Source of the DNA: Halosimplex rubrum
Lineage (GTDB): Archaea > Halobacteriota > Halobacteria > Halobacteriales > Haloarculaceae
NCBI RefSeq assembly: GCF_013415885.1
Contig: NZ_CP058910.1
Coordinates: forward strand, 1,364,001-1,428,000
Reading direction: 5' to 3'
DNA: 64,000 nucleotides
In this document: positions 40,959 through 48,501 of the stretch, piece after piece
Numbering within the stretch: position 1 is the first letter of the stretch
Layout: the number at the start of each line of letters is the position of its first letter
Position numbers and translations under genes: made by a program
Notes under the pieces: generated by a model
Database searches by the model: none
Seen by the model: the letters and a program-made list of their open reading frames with translations, nothing else
Told to the model about the DNA's origin: nothing

Positions 40959-43142
40959 ATGACAGATGGAGGGGACGGGAGCCACGGGCGCGGTGCGGTC
41001 GGGGCTCCCGGGGCGGCCGCGGACGGCGACGCGGGGGACGGGCTCGGCCCGGCGACCGAGGTCCTGCGTCTCTCTCCGGGCGAGCGAGCCGAGCGGGGGA
41101 TCGGCGACGAGACGGTGCGCGAGGCGTTCCTGACGGTCGTCCGCGAGGGCGACGCCGACGCGAAGGACCTGCGGGGCGTCGAGCTGCCCGCCATCGATCT
41201 GGACCGGCTGACCGTCGAGGGAGCGGACCGCCACCCGGTCGACCTCCGGGGGGCGACGATCGAGTCGCTGTCGGCGAGGTTCGCCACGATCCGCCTGCCG
41301 GTCCGGCTGGACGACGCGACGGTCGGCGACGTGACCCTCGACGAGGCCCACGTCGAGGAGGCGATCCTGGCCGACGGCGCGACCGTCACCGGCGAGCTCG
41401 AGGCGTTCGAGACGGAGTTCGCCGGCGACGTGGAGTTCGAGGGCGCGACGTTCGAGGGGCGGTTCGACGTCGACGAGTCGACCTTCGCCAACGACGTGAC
41501 CTTCGACGCCGCGACCTTCCGGGGGCCCGTCGAGGCCCGGGCCGCCGAGTTCTACGGCGACTCGAACCTGCTCGACGACAACACGAGCTTCACCGGCGCC
41601 GCCTTCGAGTCCGACGCGGACTTCCGGCAGACCGGGTTCGGCTTCACCCACTTCGAGCGGGCGACGTTCGCCGGCGAGGCGAACTTCCAGGAGGCGCGCT
41701 TCGACGGCGACGCCGAGTTCGACGAGGCGGTGTTCGAGGGGTTCGCCGACTTCGACGAGGCGCGTTTCGACGGCGACACCGGGTTCGCCGACGTGACGTT
41801 CGCCGGCGACGCCGACTTCCGCGGCGCGACCTTTTCGGGCCGCGAGCGCGCGCTCGACGAGGACGTGACCTTCGCGCGCTCGACGTTCGCCGGCGACGCC
41901 GACTTCCGCCACGCCCGTTTCCGGTTCGTCACCTTCGCCGAGGTGGACTTCGAGGGGGTCACCCACTTCGAGGAGGCGGAGTTCGACGCCGACGCGACGT
42001 TCGTCGGCGCTCGCTTCGCGGCCGAGGCGGACTTCGACGAGGCGCGGTTCCGCGAGGACGCCGACTTCTCGGGCGTCGAGTTCGCCGCCCGGGCGGTGTT
42101 CCGCGGCGCGGAGTTCACCGGTGGCGCGAACTTCCTCGAGGACGACCTGACCTTCGAGGGCGCACACTTCGCCGCCGACGCCGACTTCCACGACGCCGAG
42201 ATCACCTCCGCGAACTTCGTCGACACCGCCTTCGGCGGCGAGATCGACTTCAGCGGCGCCCGCTTCTCCGAGCGCATCGACTTCGAGGCCAGCCAGGTCG
42301 AGGGCGACGCCTGGGTGGACTTCACCCGCGCGAAGATCGTGACCGGCCGCATCACCCAACCCGCCGAGAACTGGGTGCGCTACGACCTGACGCTCGCTTC
42401 CCTCGGCGACGTGGACCTGGTCGCCATCGCCGAGGGGGACCACCGTCGCCTGCTCGACTTCTTCCGCTTTTGCCGCACGGAGTTCACCGAGTTCGACGGG
42501 CACGAGTTCGACTTCAGCGGTCACCGCGAGTATCTGGACCGCAACGCCTGGGCCATCCACGAGTTCCACGAACCGCCCGACGCCGACCCCGACTACGAAC
42601 TCGAGATGACCCCCGAGGTCGTCGAGACCACCTACCTCAAGGCCAAACAGAGCGCCGCCGCCGTCGGCGACATGAAGGTCGCCGGCGAGTTCCGCGTCAA
42701 GCGCCAGCAGTACAGTCGGGCGAAGAACCTCGAAGTCGTCCGCGACGGCTCGGCCGCGACGTGGACCCGCGTCAAGAACCTCGGCCGCGCGACCGAGAAC
42801 TACTTCCTCGGCGTCACCTGCGGCCACGGGATGCGCCCCATCCGGATCGGCTTCGCGTTCGTCCTCGCGCCGCTGCTGTACGTGCCGTTCTACGCGTTCG
42901 GCGGCGGCCCGTTCCGGACGGCCGCCGGGCAGCTCTCCGTCGCGGCGGCGCTCTCCCCGGAGGGGCTGGCGACGCTGTTCGACGTGGCCCGCTTTAGCTA
43001 CATTTCCTACACGACCATCGGCTACGGTTTCCTCGGCCCCGAGGGCCGGATCGCGGAGGTGCTGGCCGCCAGCGAGGCGTATCTCAGCGTCGTCCTCTCG
43101 GCGCTGCTCGTCTACGCGCTGGTCAAGCGCTCGGAGATGTAG
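40959..43142 (+). CDS. Pentapeptide-repeat protein fused to a K+ channel pore
   Basis: 727 residues. Residues 1-75 are disordered and acidic. From about 80 to 450 there are some forty five-residue repeats of the (A/D)xFxx type (for example DADFRGATFSG, TFAGDADFRHARF), which build a right-handed quadrilateral beta-helix. A linker helix (about 500-610) leads to a two-helix pore: TM1 in MRPIRIGFAFVLAPLLYV, pore loop with the selectivity filter TTIGYG at 685-690, and TM2 in AYLSVVLSALLVYALV, ending at SEM. A beta-helix therefore sits on the cytoplasmic side of a tetrameric cation channel, where other channels carry RCK domains. Gating role is inferred. Confidence 0.88.
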   Translation: MTDGGDGSHGRGAVGAPGAAADGDAGDGLGPATEVLRLSPGERAERGIGDETVREAFLTVVREGDADAKDLRGVELPAIDLDRLTVEGADRHPVDLRGATIESLSARFATIRLPVRLDDATVGDVTLDEAHVEEAILADGATVTGELEAFETEFAGDVEFEGATFEGRFDVDESTFANDVTFDAATFRGPVEARAAEFYGDSNLLDDNTSFTGAAFESDADFRQTGFGFTHFERATFAGEANFQEARFDGDAEFDEAVFEGFADFDEARFDGDTGFADVTFAGDADFRGATFSGRERALDEDVTFARSTFAGDADFRHARFRFVTFAEVDFEGVTHFEEAEFDADATFVGARFAAEADFDEARFREDADFSGVEFAARAVFRGAEFTGGANFLEDDLTFEGAHFAADADFHDAEITSANFVDTAFGGEIDFSGARFSERIDFEASQVEGDAWVDFTRAKIVTGRITQPAENWVRYDLTLASLGDVDLVAIAEGDHRRLLDFFRFCRTEFTEFDGHEFDFSGHREYLDRNAWAIHEFHEPPDADPDYELEMTPEVVETTYLKAKQSAAAVGDMKVAGEFRVKRQQYSRAKNLEVVRDGSAATWTRVKNLGRATENYFLGVTCGHGMRPIRIGFAFVLAPLLYVPFYAFGGGPFRTAAGQLSVAAALSPEGLATLFDVARFSYISYTTIGYGFLGPEGRIAEVLAASEAYLSVVLSALLVYALVKRSEM

Positions 43143-44376: not shown

Positions 44377-44634
44377 ATGAGCACACTCAACGTCAAGGTC
44401 CCGGACGAGATGGAGGACGACATCGAGGAATTCCTGGAGCGGCACCCGCACTACCTGAACAAGAGCGAACTCGTCCGTGACGCGCTTCGTCACGTCATCG
44501 GGCCGGACACCGCCGCCAATCCCGGGCAGTCGATCGATGATGACCCGCTGTTCTCCGCACCGGCGGCGACGGCGGAGGAACCGATCTCCGAGGACGAGAT
44601 CGACGAAGTCGTCTACGGCGTCTCCGACGAATGA
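44377..44634 (+). CDS. Ribbon-helix-helix antitoxin
   Basis: 85 residues. RHH motif: STLNVKVPDEMEDDIEEFLE strand and first helix, then YLNKSELVRDALRHVI. The acidic tail EEPISEDEIDEVVYGVSDE should bind the toxin. The stop overlaps the start of the PIN gene by four bases (ATGA), the usual coupling in type II modules. Pairing an RHH antitoxin with a PIN toxin is common (VapBC). Confidence 0.88.
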   Translation: MSTLNVKVPDEMEDDIEEFLERHPHYLNKSELVRDALRHVIGPDTAANPGQSIDDDPLFSAPAATAEEPISEDEIDEVVYGVSDE

Positions 44635-45089
44635 CTCCGCGGTCCGCGACGCCACTGTTCGTGGACACCAGCGCGTTCTACGCGCACTTCGTAGAAAACG
44701 CCCCTCGCCACGGGGAGGCACGGGGGGTGTTCGACGGGATCAGGACTGATGACCTTCCGTATCGTCCGCTCGTCACCTCCAGTTACGTGCTCTCGGAACT
44801 CGCGACGCTGTTACTCCGAAAGACATCTCAGACGGTCGCGAGCGATGCGCTCGAACGGATCCGGTCGTCGTCGGTCGTCTCGATAGTCCATCCGAACGAG
44901 TCCGAGTTCGCTGCGGTCTGCCAGTCGTTCGAACGATTCGACGACCAGCGGATTTCGTTCGTGGACCACTCGATAGCAGTTCTGGCTCGCCAACGCGGCG
45001 TCGAACACGTGTTCGCGTTCGACGACGACTTCAGGGTGTTCGATCTCGCGGTCGTGCCCGCCGACACCGGTGACGTGACCGGACAGTAG
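44631..45089 (+). CDS. PIN domain toxin (VapC-like)
   Basis: 152 residues. PIN active-site residues: Asp in LFVDTSAFYA (residue 12), Glu in SYVLSELATLL, and Asp residues in ISFVDHSIAVLA and VFAFDDDFRVFD. Endoribonuclease toxin by family. The window thus holds two VapC-type modules with unrelated antitoxins (AbrB at 7708, RHH here). Its stop lies 3 bases from the stop of the convergent FrhB-like gene. Codon use is less GC-extreme than in neighbouring genes (several ATT, TCG, GTA codons), in line with mobile toxin-antitoxin loci. Confidence 0.88.
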   Translation: MTPRSATPLFVDTSAFYAHFVENAPRHGEARGVFDGIRTDDLPYRPLVTSSYVLSELATLLLRKTSQTVASDALERIRSSSVVSIVHPNESEFAAVCQSFERFDDQRISFVDHSIAVLARQRGVEHVFAFDDDFRVFDLAVVPADTGDVTGQ

Positions 45090-45092
45090 GTG

Positions 45093-46736
45093 TCAGTGCC
45101 CGCGGTCGTGGGGGTTCATCTCAGTCCCGTAGTTCTCGGCGTGGTCGGCGTAGTCGATGAACCGGGGCGCGTCGGGGTCGAACGGCCGTTCCAGCGACTC
45201 GAAGGCCTTCTGCTTGTCCCACGACTGCAGGCCGCCGACGGCCGACCGGTCCTCGAGGTCGTGGTAGTCTAGGTCGTCTTTCGTCAGGTTCCAGGCGTCG
45301 AGGCCCTGCTCGGTCCGGACGATCACCGAGGAGTACTCGTCGCTGGACCCCACCGATCCGACGGTGAGGTCGGCGCAGTAGCCGGTGAAGTCCGCACACT
45401 CGTCACAGCCCTTCAAGGCGGCGTCGTGGAACGCCTCGACGTCCTCGTCGACGATGAGGTCGCCGTCGCGGTCGTAGACCATCATCCGCCCGTCGAGCAC
45501 GTCCATCTTGCCCACGTCGTCGAGGTCGATGCCGCGCTGTGCGACGATCTGCTCGCCCATCAGGCGCTCGTAGTTGAAGTTCTTCGTACACATCAGGGCG
45601 ATCGTGTAGTCGACCGCGCGGACGCCCGCCTCCTGGCTGGCGTAGTCCCACTCGAAGTCCTGCAGGGCACGGATGCCCTCGATCTCGCAGGGCGTGCCGA
45701 CGAGCGCCAGCGACGCCTCCTCGATTGGGCCCTCGATCTTGTGGTCCCACTGTCCGAGGTCGAGGTTCCCGAGCGCCATCGTCTGGTTGTAGAAACTCCC
45801 GGCGTTCTCGATGCACTCCGCGGGCGTCGTCGCGAGGAAGGACTCGGCCTTCCACGGGTCGTCGTCGCTCTCGGTCGCGATGAGCGCGCCGTCGATCTCG
45901 CCGGCCTCCAGCAGGTGACACAGGACGGAGGTGACGAGCCCGCCGTCCTGCGCCGAGTCGCGCCAGTCGTCCTCGACTTTGGCGGAGAACTCGGTGATGG
46001 GGTCGCCGGCGCCTTTCACGTTGTCGTCGCCGCCGGTGATCTTCCACTGGCGCTCGTAGCGCAGGCCGCCGCGGGGGCAGAAGTCCCAGCACAGCGAACA
46101 GCCGGTACACATCTTGACGAGTTCGGGCAGACCGTCGTCGCCGATGCCGATGGAGTCGGAGGGGCAGGCGGCGACGCAGGTGCCACACTGGATACAGCGG
46201 CCGTCGTCGACGACGGCCTCGTCGAGTTCCATGAACCACGTCTTGTCGTCGGGCGTCTCGATGTCGTTCATCCGCGAGCGGATCTCGTAGGAGGGCGTGT
46301 CCAGTTCCAGCTCCTCCTCGCCGGGCCGCTGGACGCGCCGGTCGGCGGGCGTGTCGTACACGTCCTGGCTCGCGCCCTCCGCGGGTTCGGTGAACTCGAC
46401 ATCACGGAGCTTACCGTGCTCGTCGACGTTCGCGGGCGTCGCGCCACCGTCCGTGGCGACGCCCCCTTGCTGGCGATCGCCGCGTGACCGGCCGCCGCAG
46501 CCGCAGGAACTGCCACAGCCACAGTCGTCGCCGTCGTCGGACCCGCCCACGTCGGGGACGCGGGGTACCGGGTCGTCGCTGCCCCCGTCGGTCAGCAGTC
46601 GTGAGTCGTCGAATTCGATCTCGTCGCCGTCGGGGCCGTGTCCAGTTTCGGCGAGTTCGGGCGCCACGTCGGCAGGTGCGACCTGGTCGGCCTCCGGGCT
46701 GGCCGCCACGCGCTCGCGGGCCCGGTCAGTCCCCAT
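45093..46736 (-). CDS. F420 hydrogenase/dehydrogenase beta subunit (FrhB/FqoF-like) with ferredoxin domain
   Basis: 547 residues. N-terminal 160 residues are disordered and acidic with a cysteine cluster CGCGSSCGCGG (C72, C74, C78, C80). A two-cluster ferredoxin follows: CIQCGTCVAACP (C181, C184, C187, C191) and CTGCSLCWDFCP (C210, C213, C216, C220). The remainder is the FrhB fold, with LALVGTPCEIEGIRAL, IALMCTKNFNYE and the Cys pair in GCDECADFTGYCADLTVG, which bind FAD, F420 and another Fe-S cluster. Oxidises F420H2 in relatives. It overlaps the siroheme reductase stop by 11 bases, so it is the second gene of that operon and its likely electron donor. Confidence 0.9.
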   Translation of the reverse strand: MGTDRARERVAASPEADQVAPADVAPELAETGHGPDGDEIEFDDSRLLTDGGSDDPVPRVPDVGGSDDGDDCGCGSSCGCGGRSRGDRQQGGVATDGGATPANVDEHGKLRDVEFTEPAEGASQDVYDTPADRRVQRPGEEELELDTPSYEIRSRMNDIETPDDKTWFMELDEAVVDDGRCIQCGTCVAACPSDSIGIGDDGLPELVKMCTGCSLCWDFCPRGGLRYERQWKITGGDDNVKGAGDPITEFSAKVEDDWRDSAQDGGLVTSVLCHLLEAGEIDGALIATESDDDPWKAESFLATTPAECIENAGSFYNQTMALGNLDLGQWDHKIEGPIEEASLALVGTPCEIEGIRALQDFEWDYASQEAGVRAVDYTIALMCTKNFNYERLMGEQIVAQRGIDLDDVGKMDVLDGRMMVYDRDGDLIVDEDVEAFHDAALKGCDECADFTGYCADLTVGSVGSSDEYSSVIVRTEQGLDAWNLTKDDLDYHDLEDRSAVGGLQSWDKQKAFESLERPFDPDAPRFIDYADHAENYGTEMNPHDRGH

Positions 46737-48474
46737 GAGCGACACCTCCCGAGACGTTCGCGTCGGCGCGTTGCATGACCTTCCGGAGCCGCTGGTTCCC
46801 GACTCGACGGGTCCACTCGTAGAATCGCTCGCCCGCCTCGCGCTCGTCGACGTAGGCCGCGAACAGCTCCTCGATGGCCGGGATGACCGCGCTCGCGGGT
46901 ACCGCGGTCTCGACCCAGTCGAGGAACTCGTTGTCCGAGCCGAGGCTCCCGCCGAGGCCGAAGTCCATGCCTTCGACGATATTGTCGCCCTCCTCGTTGG
47001 TGGTGCCCTCGGGGTCGTCGACGTCGACCGTCTCGCCGCGGAAGCCGATGTCGGCGATCTGCGGTTGGGCACACGAGGCCGAACAGCCCGACATGTGCAT
47101 CCGGACCACGTCGAGGTCGTCGGGCGTGTCGATGCGCCGATCGAGGGCTTTGGCCCACCGATACACCCGATTCTTCGTCTCGACGATGCCGTAGTTGCAG
47201 AACTCCGAGCCGGTGCAGCCGACGGCGCCCCGCGTGAACGGCCCCGGATCCGGTTCGTACTTGCGGGCGAACGGCTCGTTCAGCAGGTCGCCGACGTTCT
47301 CGGCGGGAACGTGGGTGACGAGGAAGTTCTGGTCGGTGGCCAGGCGGACCGAGGCCTCGTCGGTGCCGTACTCCCGCGCGGCGCGGGCGGCTTCGGCGAA
47401 CTCGTCGCCGCCCATCCGGCCGGCGACGACGTTGAAGCCGACGTACTTCAGCCCGTCTTCTTTCTGGTCGTGGACGCCGACGTGGTCGCCGGTGTACCCC
47501 TCGGTGAGGTCCGTCCCGGCTGTCGGCAGATCCACCTCACAGCGCCGGCGGACCGCTTGCTCGAACGCCTCGGTACCGAGCTGTTCGACGAGATAGCGCA
47601 TCCGGCAGACGCCGCGATTCGACCGATCACCGAGTTCCTTGAACGTCTGGGCGATCGCGCGGCAGAACTCCACCGCGTCGCCCGGCGGGACGAACACGTC
47701 CATCGCCGTCGCCATGCGCGGCCCGTCCGAGAGGCCGCCGCCGACCTTGCAGTGGAAGCCGTAGACCTCCTTGCCACCGTCCGACGAGCCCGACGAGCCT
47801 CCGGCTTCGCCGGAGCCCCCGACTTCCTTGCGCGCGGGCGTCAACCCCACGTCGTTGATCTGCGACTGGCCGCAGTCGCGCGCGCAGCCGGTGACGGTCA
47901 TCTTGAACTTCCGCGGGAGGTTGGCGTACTCCCGGTTCTCCGTGAAGAACTCGGAGACGGCGTCGATGACGGGCTGGGCGTCGAAACACTCGTGACCGTC
48001 CAGCCCGGCGGCCGGACAACCGAGGACGTTCCGGGCGGAGTCGCCACAGCCCTGGATCGTCGTCAGGCCGACCTCGTCGTATCTCGCCCAGACCTCGGGC
48101 ACGTCCTCGACCTCGATCCAGTGCATCTGGATGTCCTGACGGGTCGTGAGGTCGAGGAAGGCGTCGCCCCAGACCGAGTTCTGGTCCTCGCCGCCGTACT
48201 CCGCAGGCGCGGTGGCGTACGTCTCGGCCACCTCGCCGATCACCTCGGCCTGTTCGGGCGTGAGATACCCGCCGGGGACCTTGGTCCGCATCATGAAGTA
48301 GCCGTCCTGCCGCCCGTGAGCATACATCCCGGCCCACTTCAACCGCTCCCACTCGCCGTCGCCCGCGCGCGCCTCGATCTCTTCGAACGACAGCCCCTCT
48401 GCGGCGTACGACTTCACGTCCTCGACCACGTCCAGCGGGTGTTTCTCCTGTTTCCACTCCTCGACCGTGTTCAC
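46726..48474 (-). CDS. Siroheme nitrite/sulfite reductase (ferredoxin-type)
   Basis: About 582 residues. Two NIR/SIR half-domain pairs. The C-terminal half has the siroheme-4Fe4S ligands CTGSEFC and SGCSASCAQPQIADIGF; the N-terminal half also retains cysteines (GCGDSARNVLGCPA, VTGCARDCG) that plant-type enzymes have lost. Performs six-electron reduction of nitrite to ammonia or sulfite to sulfide; sequence by eye does not decide which. No nitrate reductase gene is nearby. A Gly/Ser insertion (GSGEAGGSSGSSDGG) sits between the halves. Start: GTG 48474 (MNTVEEWKQEKHPLDVV) is preferred to GTG 48483; both are inside a hairpin. Confidence 0.9.
   Translation of the reverse strand: MNTVEEWKQEKHPLDVVEDVKSYAAEGLSFEEIEARAGDGEWERLKWAGMYAHGRQDGYFMMRTKVPGGYLTPEQAEVIGEVAETYATAPAEYGGEDQNSVWGDAFLDLTTRQDIQMHWIEVEDVPEVWARYDEVGLTTIQGCGDSARNVLGCPAAGLDGHECFDAQPVIDAVSEFFTENREYANLPRKFKMTVTGCARDCGQSQINDVGLTPARKEVGGSGEAGGSSGSSDGGKEVYGFHCKVGGGLSDGPRMATAMDVFVPPGDAVEFCRAIAQTFKELGDRSNRGVCRMRYLVEQLGTEAFEQAVRRRCEVDLPTAGTDLTEGYTGDHVGVHDQKEDGLKYVGFNVVAGRMGGDEFAEAARAAREYGTDEASVRLATDQNFLVTHVPAENVGDLLNEPFARKYEPDPGPFTRGAVGCTGSEFCNYGIVETKNRVYRWAKALDRRIDTPDDLDVVRMHMSGCSASCAQPQIADIGFRGETVDVDDPEGTTNEEGDNIVEGMDFGLGGSLGSDNEFLDWVETAVPASAVIPAIEELFAAYVDEREAGERFYEWTRRVGNQRLRKVMQRADANVSGGVAHGD
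47782..47815. repeat. Micro-insertion with tandem repeat and hairpin in the siroheme reductase gene
   Basis: The nonamer cgacgagcc is repeated at 47782-47790 and 47791-47799, followed by a perfect hairpin ctccggc-ttc-gccggag (47799-47815). It encodes the Gly/Ser linker absent from typical relatives. The ttc loop matches that of the second hairpin in the beta-CASP gene insertion. Confidence 0.55.
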
Positions 48475-48501
48475 GCGAGCCACCCCCCGGTGGCTCGCGT
48501 G
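48472..48501. promoter_or_regulatory. 13-bp perfect hairpin covering the siroheme reductase start codon
   Basis: Arms cacgcgagccacc (48472-48484) and ggtggctcgcgtg (48489-48501) with a 4-base loop. On the mRNA both possible GTG start codons (48483 and 48474) fall in the 3' arm. It could be an RNA structure that hides the start site or a DNA operator; the sequence alone does not say which. Confidence 0.6.

Follow-up and report, generated by a model that had tools for sequence, protein, structure and literature searches.

A pair of overlapping genes in Halosimplex rubrum probably encodes the two subunits of a soluble F420H2:sulfite oxidoreductase. The genes lie on the minus strand of a 64,000-nucleotide stretch of DNA (contig NZ_CP058910.1, positions 1,364,001 to 1,428,000; G000:C1:1364001-1428000), referred to below as the window, in a haloarchaeal replicon of 4.48 Mb. 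A pair of this kind was predicted in haloarchaea by Susanti and Mukhopadhyay in 2012 as the putative F420H2-dependent enzyme "aFsr", composed of aFsr-alpha and aFsr-beta (PMC3448663), and the window pair, which has the same two subunits, organism clade, and proposed reaction, is a member of that system. The reductase (aFsr-alpha) is denoted P0002, and the FrhB-like protein (aFsr-beta) is denoted P0001. We infer that the two proteins form a complex, in which the FrhB-like subunit would take a hydride from F420H2 onto flavin adenine dinucleotide (FAD), single electrons would run through the Fe-S clusters of this subunit to the siroheme-[4Fe-4S] center of its partner, and the reductase would carry out the six-electron reduction of sulfite to sulfide for either assimilation or detoxification.

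The original prediction, made from the letters of the window, had proposed an F420-dependent pair in a halophile that would reduce sulfite or nitrite by means of co-translated modules. This interpretation is supported, with sulfite as the favored substrate, but the enzyme idea itself is not new, having been published in 2012. That paper (PMC3448663) names few species and reports no experiment, and an experimental test of the predicted aFsr was not found in the literature searched. Several points described below were not found in the main text of the paper, from which the word rhodanese is absent: the division into two lineages, the fusion with rhodanese, the Cys at the C terminus, the Lys/Asn contrast within one genome, the joint decay, and the non-haloarchaeal cysH operon. 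What is new here is survey-scale evidence for the unit, residue-level evidence for sulfite, a cysH context beyond haloarchaea, and the existence of two forms (type A, to which the window pair belongs, and type B).

Organization and conservation of the gene pair

A siroheme reductase gene overlaps an FrhB/FqoF-like gene by 11 bases, confirming what had been claimed about the position and strand of the two genes:

46726..48483, minus strand: aFsr-alpha, type A, putative siroheme-[4Fe-4S] assimilatory-type sulfite reductase of the NirA/SiR family (Pfam NIR_SIR, NIR_SIR_ferr; fold match to NirA/NiR/SiR)
45093..46736, minus strand: aFsr-beta, type A, FrhB/FqoF-like flavin and Fe-S subunit, presumed F420H2 dehydrogenase (Pfam FrhB_FdhB_N/C and 4Fe-4S dicluster; fold match to F420 subunits of carbon monoxide dehydrogenase (CODH), formylmethanofuran dehydrogenase (Fwd), Fsr, and Frh)
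46726..46736, minus strand: overlap of the two reading frames, 11 bases (sequence)

The reductase gene runs from 48483 to 46726 (585 codons counted from the GTG used), and an alignment with relatives suggests that translation may begin at another GTG, three codons further downstream. The FrhB-like gene extends from an ATG at 46736 to a stop at 45093 and encodes 547 amino acids. The overlap of the two frames suggests co-translation.

In a survey of 342 genomes of the class Halobacteria, the type A reductase is present in 97 genomes and the type A FrhB protein in the identical 97, neither intact gene being found alone. The two genes are adjacent in all 97, which excludes a chance neighborhood. 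Counted by protein, the reductase immediately precedes FrhB in 96 of the 99 type A FrhB rows; the remaining three are a split alignment in G058 (L047), for which the N-terminal half is adjacent, and second FrhB paralogues without a neighboring reductase in G142 and G269. Type A and/or type B is present in 105 of the 342 genomes. Genes around the pair vary among genomes (ftsY in some, others elsewhere) while the pair itself stays, implying that its adjacency is held by selection and not by general synteny. The unit also decays as a whole. The congener G002 has a truncated FrhB protein and a reductase in which residue 173 is joined to residue 464, and in G342 remnants of both genes lie side by side, so that the two genes are also lost together. 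The survey that had been proposed as a check therefore finds the two genes as neighbors in every relative that has the pair. Adjacent relics of both genes are seen at L040:9223-10501 and L083:4897-5551, in two genomes without an intact pair, and relics of FrhB only at L084 and L085. At L079:6801-9886, a second, type A-like FrhB paralog without the Cys extension adjoins a TcuA-like tricarballylate dehydrogenase gene, which suggests recruitment of the F420 adaptor by another flavoenzyme.

In a quick tree built from 57 proteins of the FrhB family, with support by the Shimodaira-Hasegawa-like approximate likelihood ratio test (SH-aLRT) only, types A and B, two proteins from metagenome-assembled genomes (MAGs) of thermophilic archaea, and one Dehalococcoidia protein fall into one group (SH-aLRT 100) apart from 20 other FrhB relatives of the phylum; the named ones among these 20 are L117, a true FrhB by cut-off, and L111 and L120, both fusions of the Fsr type. 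The reductase tree shows the same A/B partition, with NasD and a third paralog falling outside. In the quick tree, the FrhB-like protein thus belongs to a clade of its own and does not group with subunits of another complex.

The two subunits compared with known enzymes

The reductase matches the Pfam families NIR_SIR (E 2e-53) and NIR_SIR_ferr (E 1e-29), and its predicted model has a mean predicted local distance difference test (pLDDT) score of 86.6. The match of this model to M. tuberculosis NirA (1zj8) and plant NiR (2akj, 3b0g), with which it shares fold and architecture, spans the whole length (TM-score 0.82-0.83 by target length), whereas matches to Fsr structures give only partial coverage and TM-scores of 0.36 or less. 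P0002 is therefore of the duplicated NirA/SiR type, bearing out the claim of an assimilatory-type reductase, although NirA and plant NiR are free-standing, ferredoxin-fed enzymes. Three groups of residues stand out:

47902..47916, minus strand: PRKFK motif, residues 190-194, with both active-site lysines K192 and K194 (alignment with own-genome NasD, PRKFN, and spinach NiR, PRKWN)
47071..47217, minus strand: CX5C...CX3C ligands of the siroheme-coupled [4Fe-4S] cluster, C423, C429, C467, and C471 (invariant in an alignment of 29 reductases)
47872..48048, minus strand: four N-half cysteines, C146, C156, C200, and C204, a possible extra cluster (conservation)

The N-half cysteines form a CX9C plus CX3C arrangement at the place equivalent, within the duplication, to where the C-terminal half has its cluster. 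They are kept in type A and the third paralog, mostly in type B, and not at all in spinach NiR; as a matter of speculation, they could be the ligands of a second Fe-S cluster and the electron entry point.

The FrhB-like protein matches FrhB_FdhB_C (E 2e-33), FrhB_FdhB_N (E 3e-21), and a 4Fe-4S dicluster ferredoxin domain in Pfam:

46497..46523, minus strand: N-terminal CGCGSSCGC motif, type A-specific, in a predicted disordered extension (motif in 25 of 29 type A proteins; pLDDT <50)
46077..46196, minus strand: two-cluster ferredoxin domain, C181-C220 (Pfam Fer4_21/Fer4_9; cysteines invariant or nearly so)
45771..45989, minus strand: FrhB_FdhB_N domain (Pfam PF04422)
45261..45713, minus strand: FrhB_FdhB_C domain with conserved cysteines (Pfam PF04432; C350, C383, C444, and C447 invariant)

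The two-cluster ferredoxin domain that had been claimed is present. As for the claimed extra N-terminal cluster, the CGCGSSCGCGG sequence is there, and a motif of the type C-x(3-4)-C-x-C does recur in type A relatives at the frequency listed above, but it sits in a variable stretch of low model confidence. The predicted model has a mean pLDDT of 73.7, with a core mostly above 80 and low values for residues 1-101 and much of 102-162. Its best matches are the F420-reducing CODH and Fwd subunits, Fsr, and FrhB, and plant HCAR matches less strongly. It shares the flavin/Fe-S adaptor fold of FrhB, FqoF/FpoF, and the Ca. Ethanoperedens CODH (8riu) and Fwd (8rja) subunits, but differs from these adaptors in having another partner, a separate clade, a long acidic N-terminal extension with the Cys motif, and a C-terminal extension. 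Moreover, the protein scores under the NCBIfam cut-offs for both FrhB (126 versus 331.5 bits) and FpoF (107 versus 475 bits).

As predicted for aFsr, the window pair has a duplicated assimilatory-type siroheme reductase beside an Fsr-N homologue (FrhB with two N-terminal [4Fe-4S] motifs). The group I enzymes of Methanocaldococcus and Methanothermococcus (Fsr; PDB 7np8, 7npa) likewise join an FqoF-like F420H2 oxidase half to a siroheme sulfite reductase, but they do so in one chain and with a single Dsr-like half carrying an inserted ferredoxin, whereas the window pair consists of two chains from overlapping frames and its duplicated assimilatory reductase lacks the insertion, which is seen in the true Fsr relatives L111 and L120. 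The description of the pair as a "split Fsr" is thus correct in that FqoF-like and siroheme modules are encoded by two genes, but it holds as an analogy only. Descent from one fused Fsr gene that fell apart was considered and rejected because the two systems differ in the type of their reductase half and because, in the quick tree, their FrhB halves do not come out as sister groups.

Sulfite or nitrite as the substrate

Sulfite reductases hold sulfite by two Arg and two Lys residues (PMC10229431). P0002 carries R66, R115, K192, and K194, of which the first three are invariant and K194 is nearly so in the reductase alignment. In plant nitrite reductase, Asn takes the place of the second Lys. 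Every type A and type B reductase read over this motif has PRK[FYL]K, whereas NasD of the same genome, encoded beside a nasA-type gene, has PRKFN and spinach NiR has PRKWN; P0002 therefore has Lys where a nitrite reductase has Asn after PRK[FW]. The window is indeed free of nitrate reductase genes, as originally stated, the nasA-type gene with its own nitrite reductase being about 1 Mb away (L039). Beyond haloarchaea, a MAG of the thermophilic archaeon Ca. Pyrohabitans (L131:2381-5859) has the gene order reductase-FrhB-cysH, with a phosphoadenylyl-sulfate reductase gene above the curated cut-off. The reductase frame is interrupted in this contig and intact in the near-identical L132, from a MAG labeled Thermococcus, so that one of the two MAG labels is probably a binning error. 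The PRKFK/PRKFN contrast, this cysH operon, and the rhodanese fusion of type B (see below) favor sulfite over nitrite as the substrate.

An F420H2-dependent nitrite reductase serving nitrite assimilation or detoxification is, in our view, unlikely. The best NCBIfam model for P0002 is "ferredoxin--nitrite reductase", although at 376 bits against a cut-off of 594 the protein falls short of this equivalog, and the closest folds are plant NiR and M. tuberculosis NirA. In addition, F420-dependent FsrII of anaerobic methanotrophic archaea (ANME) uses F420H2 to reduce nitrite but cannot do so with sulfite, although its siroheme site is capable of sulfite reduction. Its authors place the cause in the electron path and not in the substrate site, and the enzyme demonstrates that an F420 electron path can favor nitrite (PMC9295563). 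Weighing against nitrite are the Lys at the discriminating position, the separate NasD with Asn beside nasA, and the sulfur-related contexts in Ca. Pyrohabitans and type B.

Electron donor and remaining alternatives

F420 is the likely electron donor of the FrhB-like subunit on the basis of the FrhB-core cysteines and ferredoxin domain, the fold matches to F420 enzymes, and the presence of cofD, a gene of F420 synthesis, in the same genome. It is quite unlikely that the subunit instead feeds the sulfite reductase with electrons from ferredoxin or some other donor. The structural kinship with HCAR is consistent with such a donor, as is the fact that, although F420 genes are present in haloarchaeal genomes, almost no F420-using enzyme is known there, with reports up to 2021 covering a single F420-dependent reaction in halophilic archaea (PMC8305020). 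The nearest relatives in sequence and fold, however, are all F420-dependent enzymes, and a ferredoxin-dependent NirA/SiR enzyme would normally need no such adaptor. It is very improbable that the substrate of the reductase is a different compound related to sulfur or siroheme, or that the complex runs in another direction, while the neighbor serves a different partner, since the sulfite-binding residues and cluster ligands are all kept, co-occurrence is absolute for true type A, and adjacency is complete for the type B units surveyed. In favor of such a reading, the four extra N-half cysteines and the rhodanese domains and C-terminal Cys of type B hint at something beyond plain sulfite reduction, and a related FrhB is found beside a TcuA-like flavoprotein instead.

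Several observations nevertheless weigh against an F420H2:sulfite oxidoreductase. HCAR is a ferredoxin-using member of the FrhB family, so that the family is not uniformly F420-dependent. Given the behavior of FsrII, active-site residues do not settle the substrate. The third NirA-like protein of the genome also has the lysine, and hence aFsr may be redundant. This paralog (L038:8156-10308; PRKWK, with the N-half cysteines), which lies beside a DUF6360 gene, is possibly a second sulfite reductase. Finally, with regard to the source of sulfite in this organism, canonical cysH is nearly absent from Halobacteria (above the cut-off in 1 of the 342 genomes surveyed); five further genomes with a cysH match of E <1e-33 are all aFsr carriers, too small a number to show that aFsr tracks cysH. 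The PF01507 matches of the H. rubrum genome were rejected as canonical CysH because they belong to a TtuA-like protein and to a divergent member of the PAPS_reduct family.

Type B and a possible source of sulfite

Type B lies outside the window. Its FrhB protein has about 420 amino acids and is 40-49% identical to that of type A. Reductase genes are adjacent in all 30 of the type B cases in the survey, as seen for 27 in tables and for three (L051, L052, L075) by reading the loci; type B loci include L055, L051, L054, L056, and L121-L130. A tandem rhodanese is fused to the haloarchaeal type B reductases, and its second domain has a catalytic-type CNTARR loop, with Cys, in 26 of 26. The C-terminal residue of the FrhB protein is Cys in all 33 non-redundant type B proteins and His in 27 of 29 type A proteins, the 33 including the Cys-ending proteins of the two thermophile MAGs and the Dehalococcoidia, which were counted though no rhodanese domain is in view. 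In a Dehalococcoidia MAG (L137), a type B-like, Cys-ending FrhB protein is encoded on a short contig without a view of the reductase. The genes near the type B unit in G043 encode a protein of the PAPS_reduct family, a siroheme-synthase-type NAD-binding protein, a tetrapyrrole methylase, and CbiX. A rhodanese-NirA fusion was noted in 2024 for 19 of 529 proteins, with no link to FrhB in the relevant passages of that source (PMC11237513), and no report joining the fusion, the FrhB partner, and the C-terminal Cys was found in the literature searched.

The supply of sulfide for cysteine is little known in haloarchaea, in which the 3'-phosphoadenosine-5'-phosphosulfate (PAPS) route is reported absent (PMC3402447). 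The type B architecture suggests thiosulfate as a source of sulfite in this group. More tentatively, and with considerable doubt on our part, aFsr might comprise two forms of one sulfide-making system that replaces the missing PAPS route in many haloarchaea, type B being a self-contained F420-driven thiosulfate reductase and the N-half cysteines a second Fe-S cluster for electron entry. In this scheme, the tandem rhodanese of type B would split thiosulfate, the fused siroheme domain would reduce the freed sulfite with electrons from F420H2, and the invariant C-terminal Cys of the FrhB subunit would handle the sulfane sulfur.

Neighboring genes in the window

Convergent with the pair on its downstream side are a small gene and a PIN-domain (VapC-like) gene (44377-45089, opposite strand), which end 3 bases from the FrhB stop and are a possible toxin-antitoxin pair. 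The upstream neighbors, beyond a gap of 812 bases, are ftsY and prefoldin alpha. No hint to the function of the pair comes from any of these flanking genes. A pentapeptide-repeat protein is encoded at 40959-43142, the C-terminal end of which resembles a potassium-channel pore (TIGYG).

Implications

If confirmed, aFsr would provide a role for F420 in halophiles and account for part of their sulfur supply, and it would be an equivalent, encoded by two genes, of the fused enzyme known from methanogens. Moreover, the type B fusion makes an older proposal, in which thiosulfate passes through a sulfurtransferase to a sulfite reductase, directly testable in one protein.

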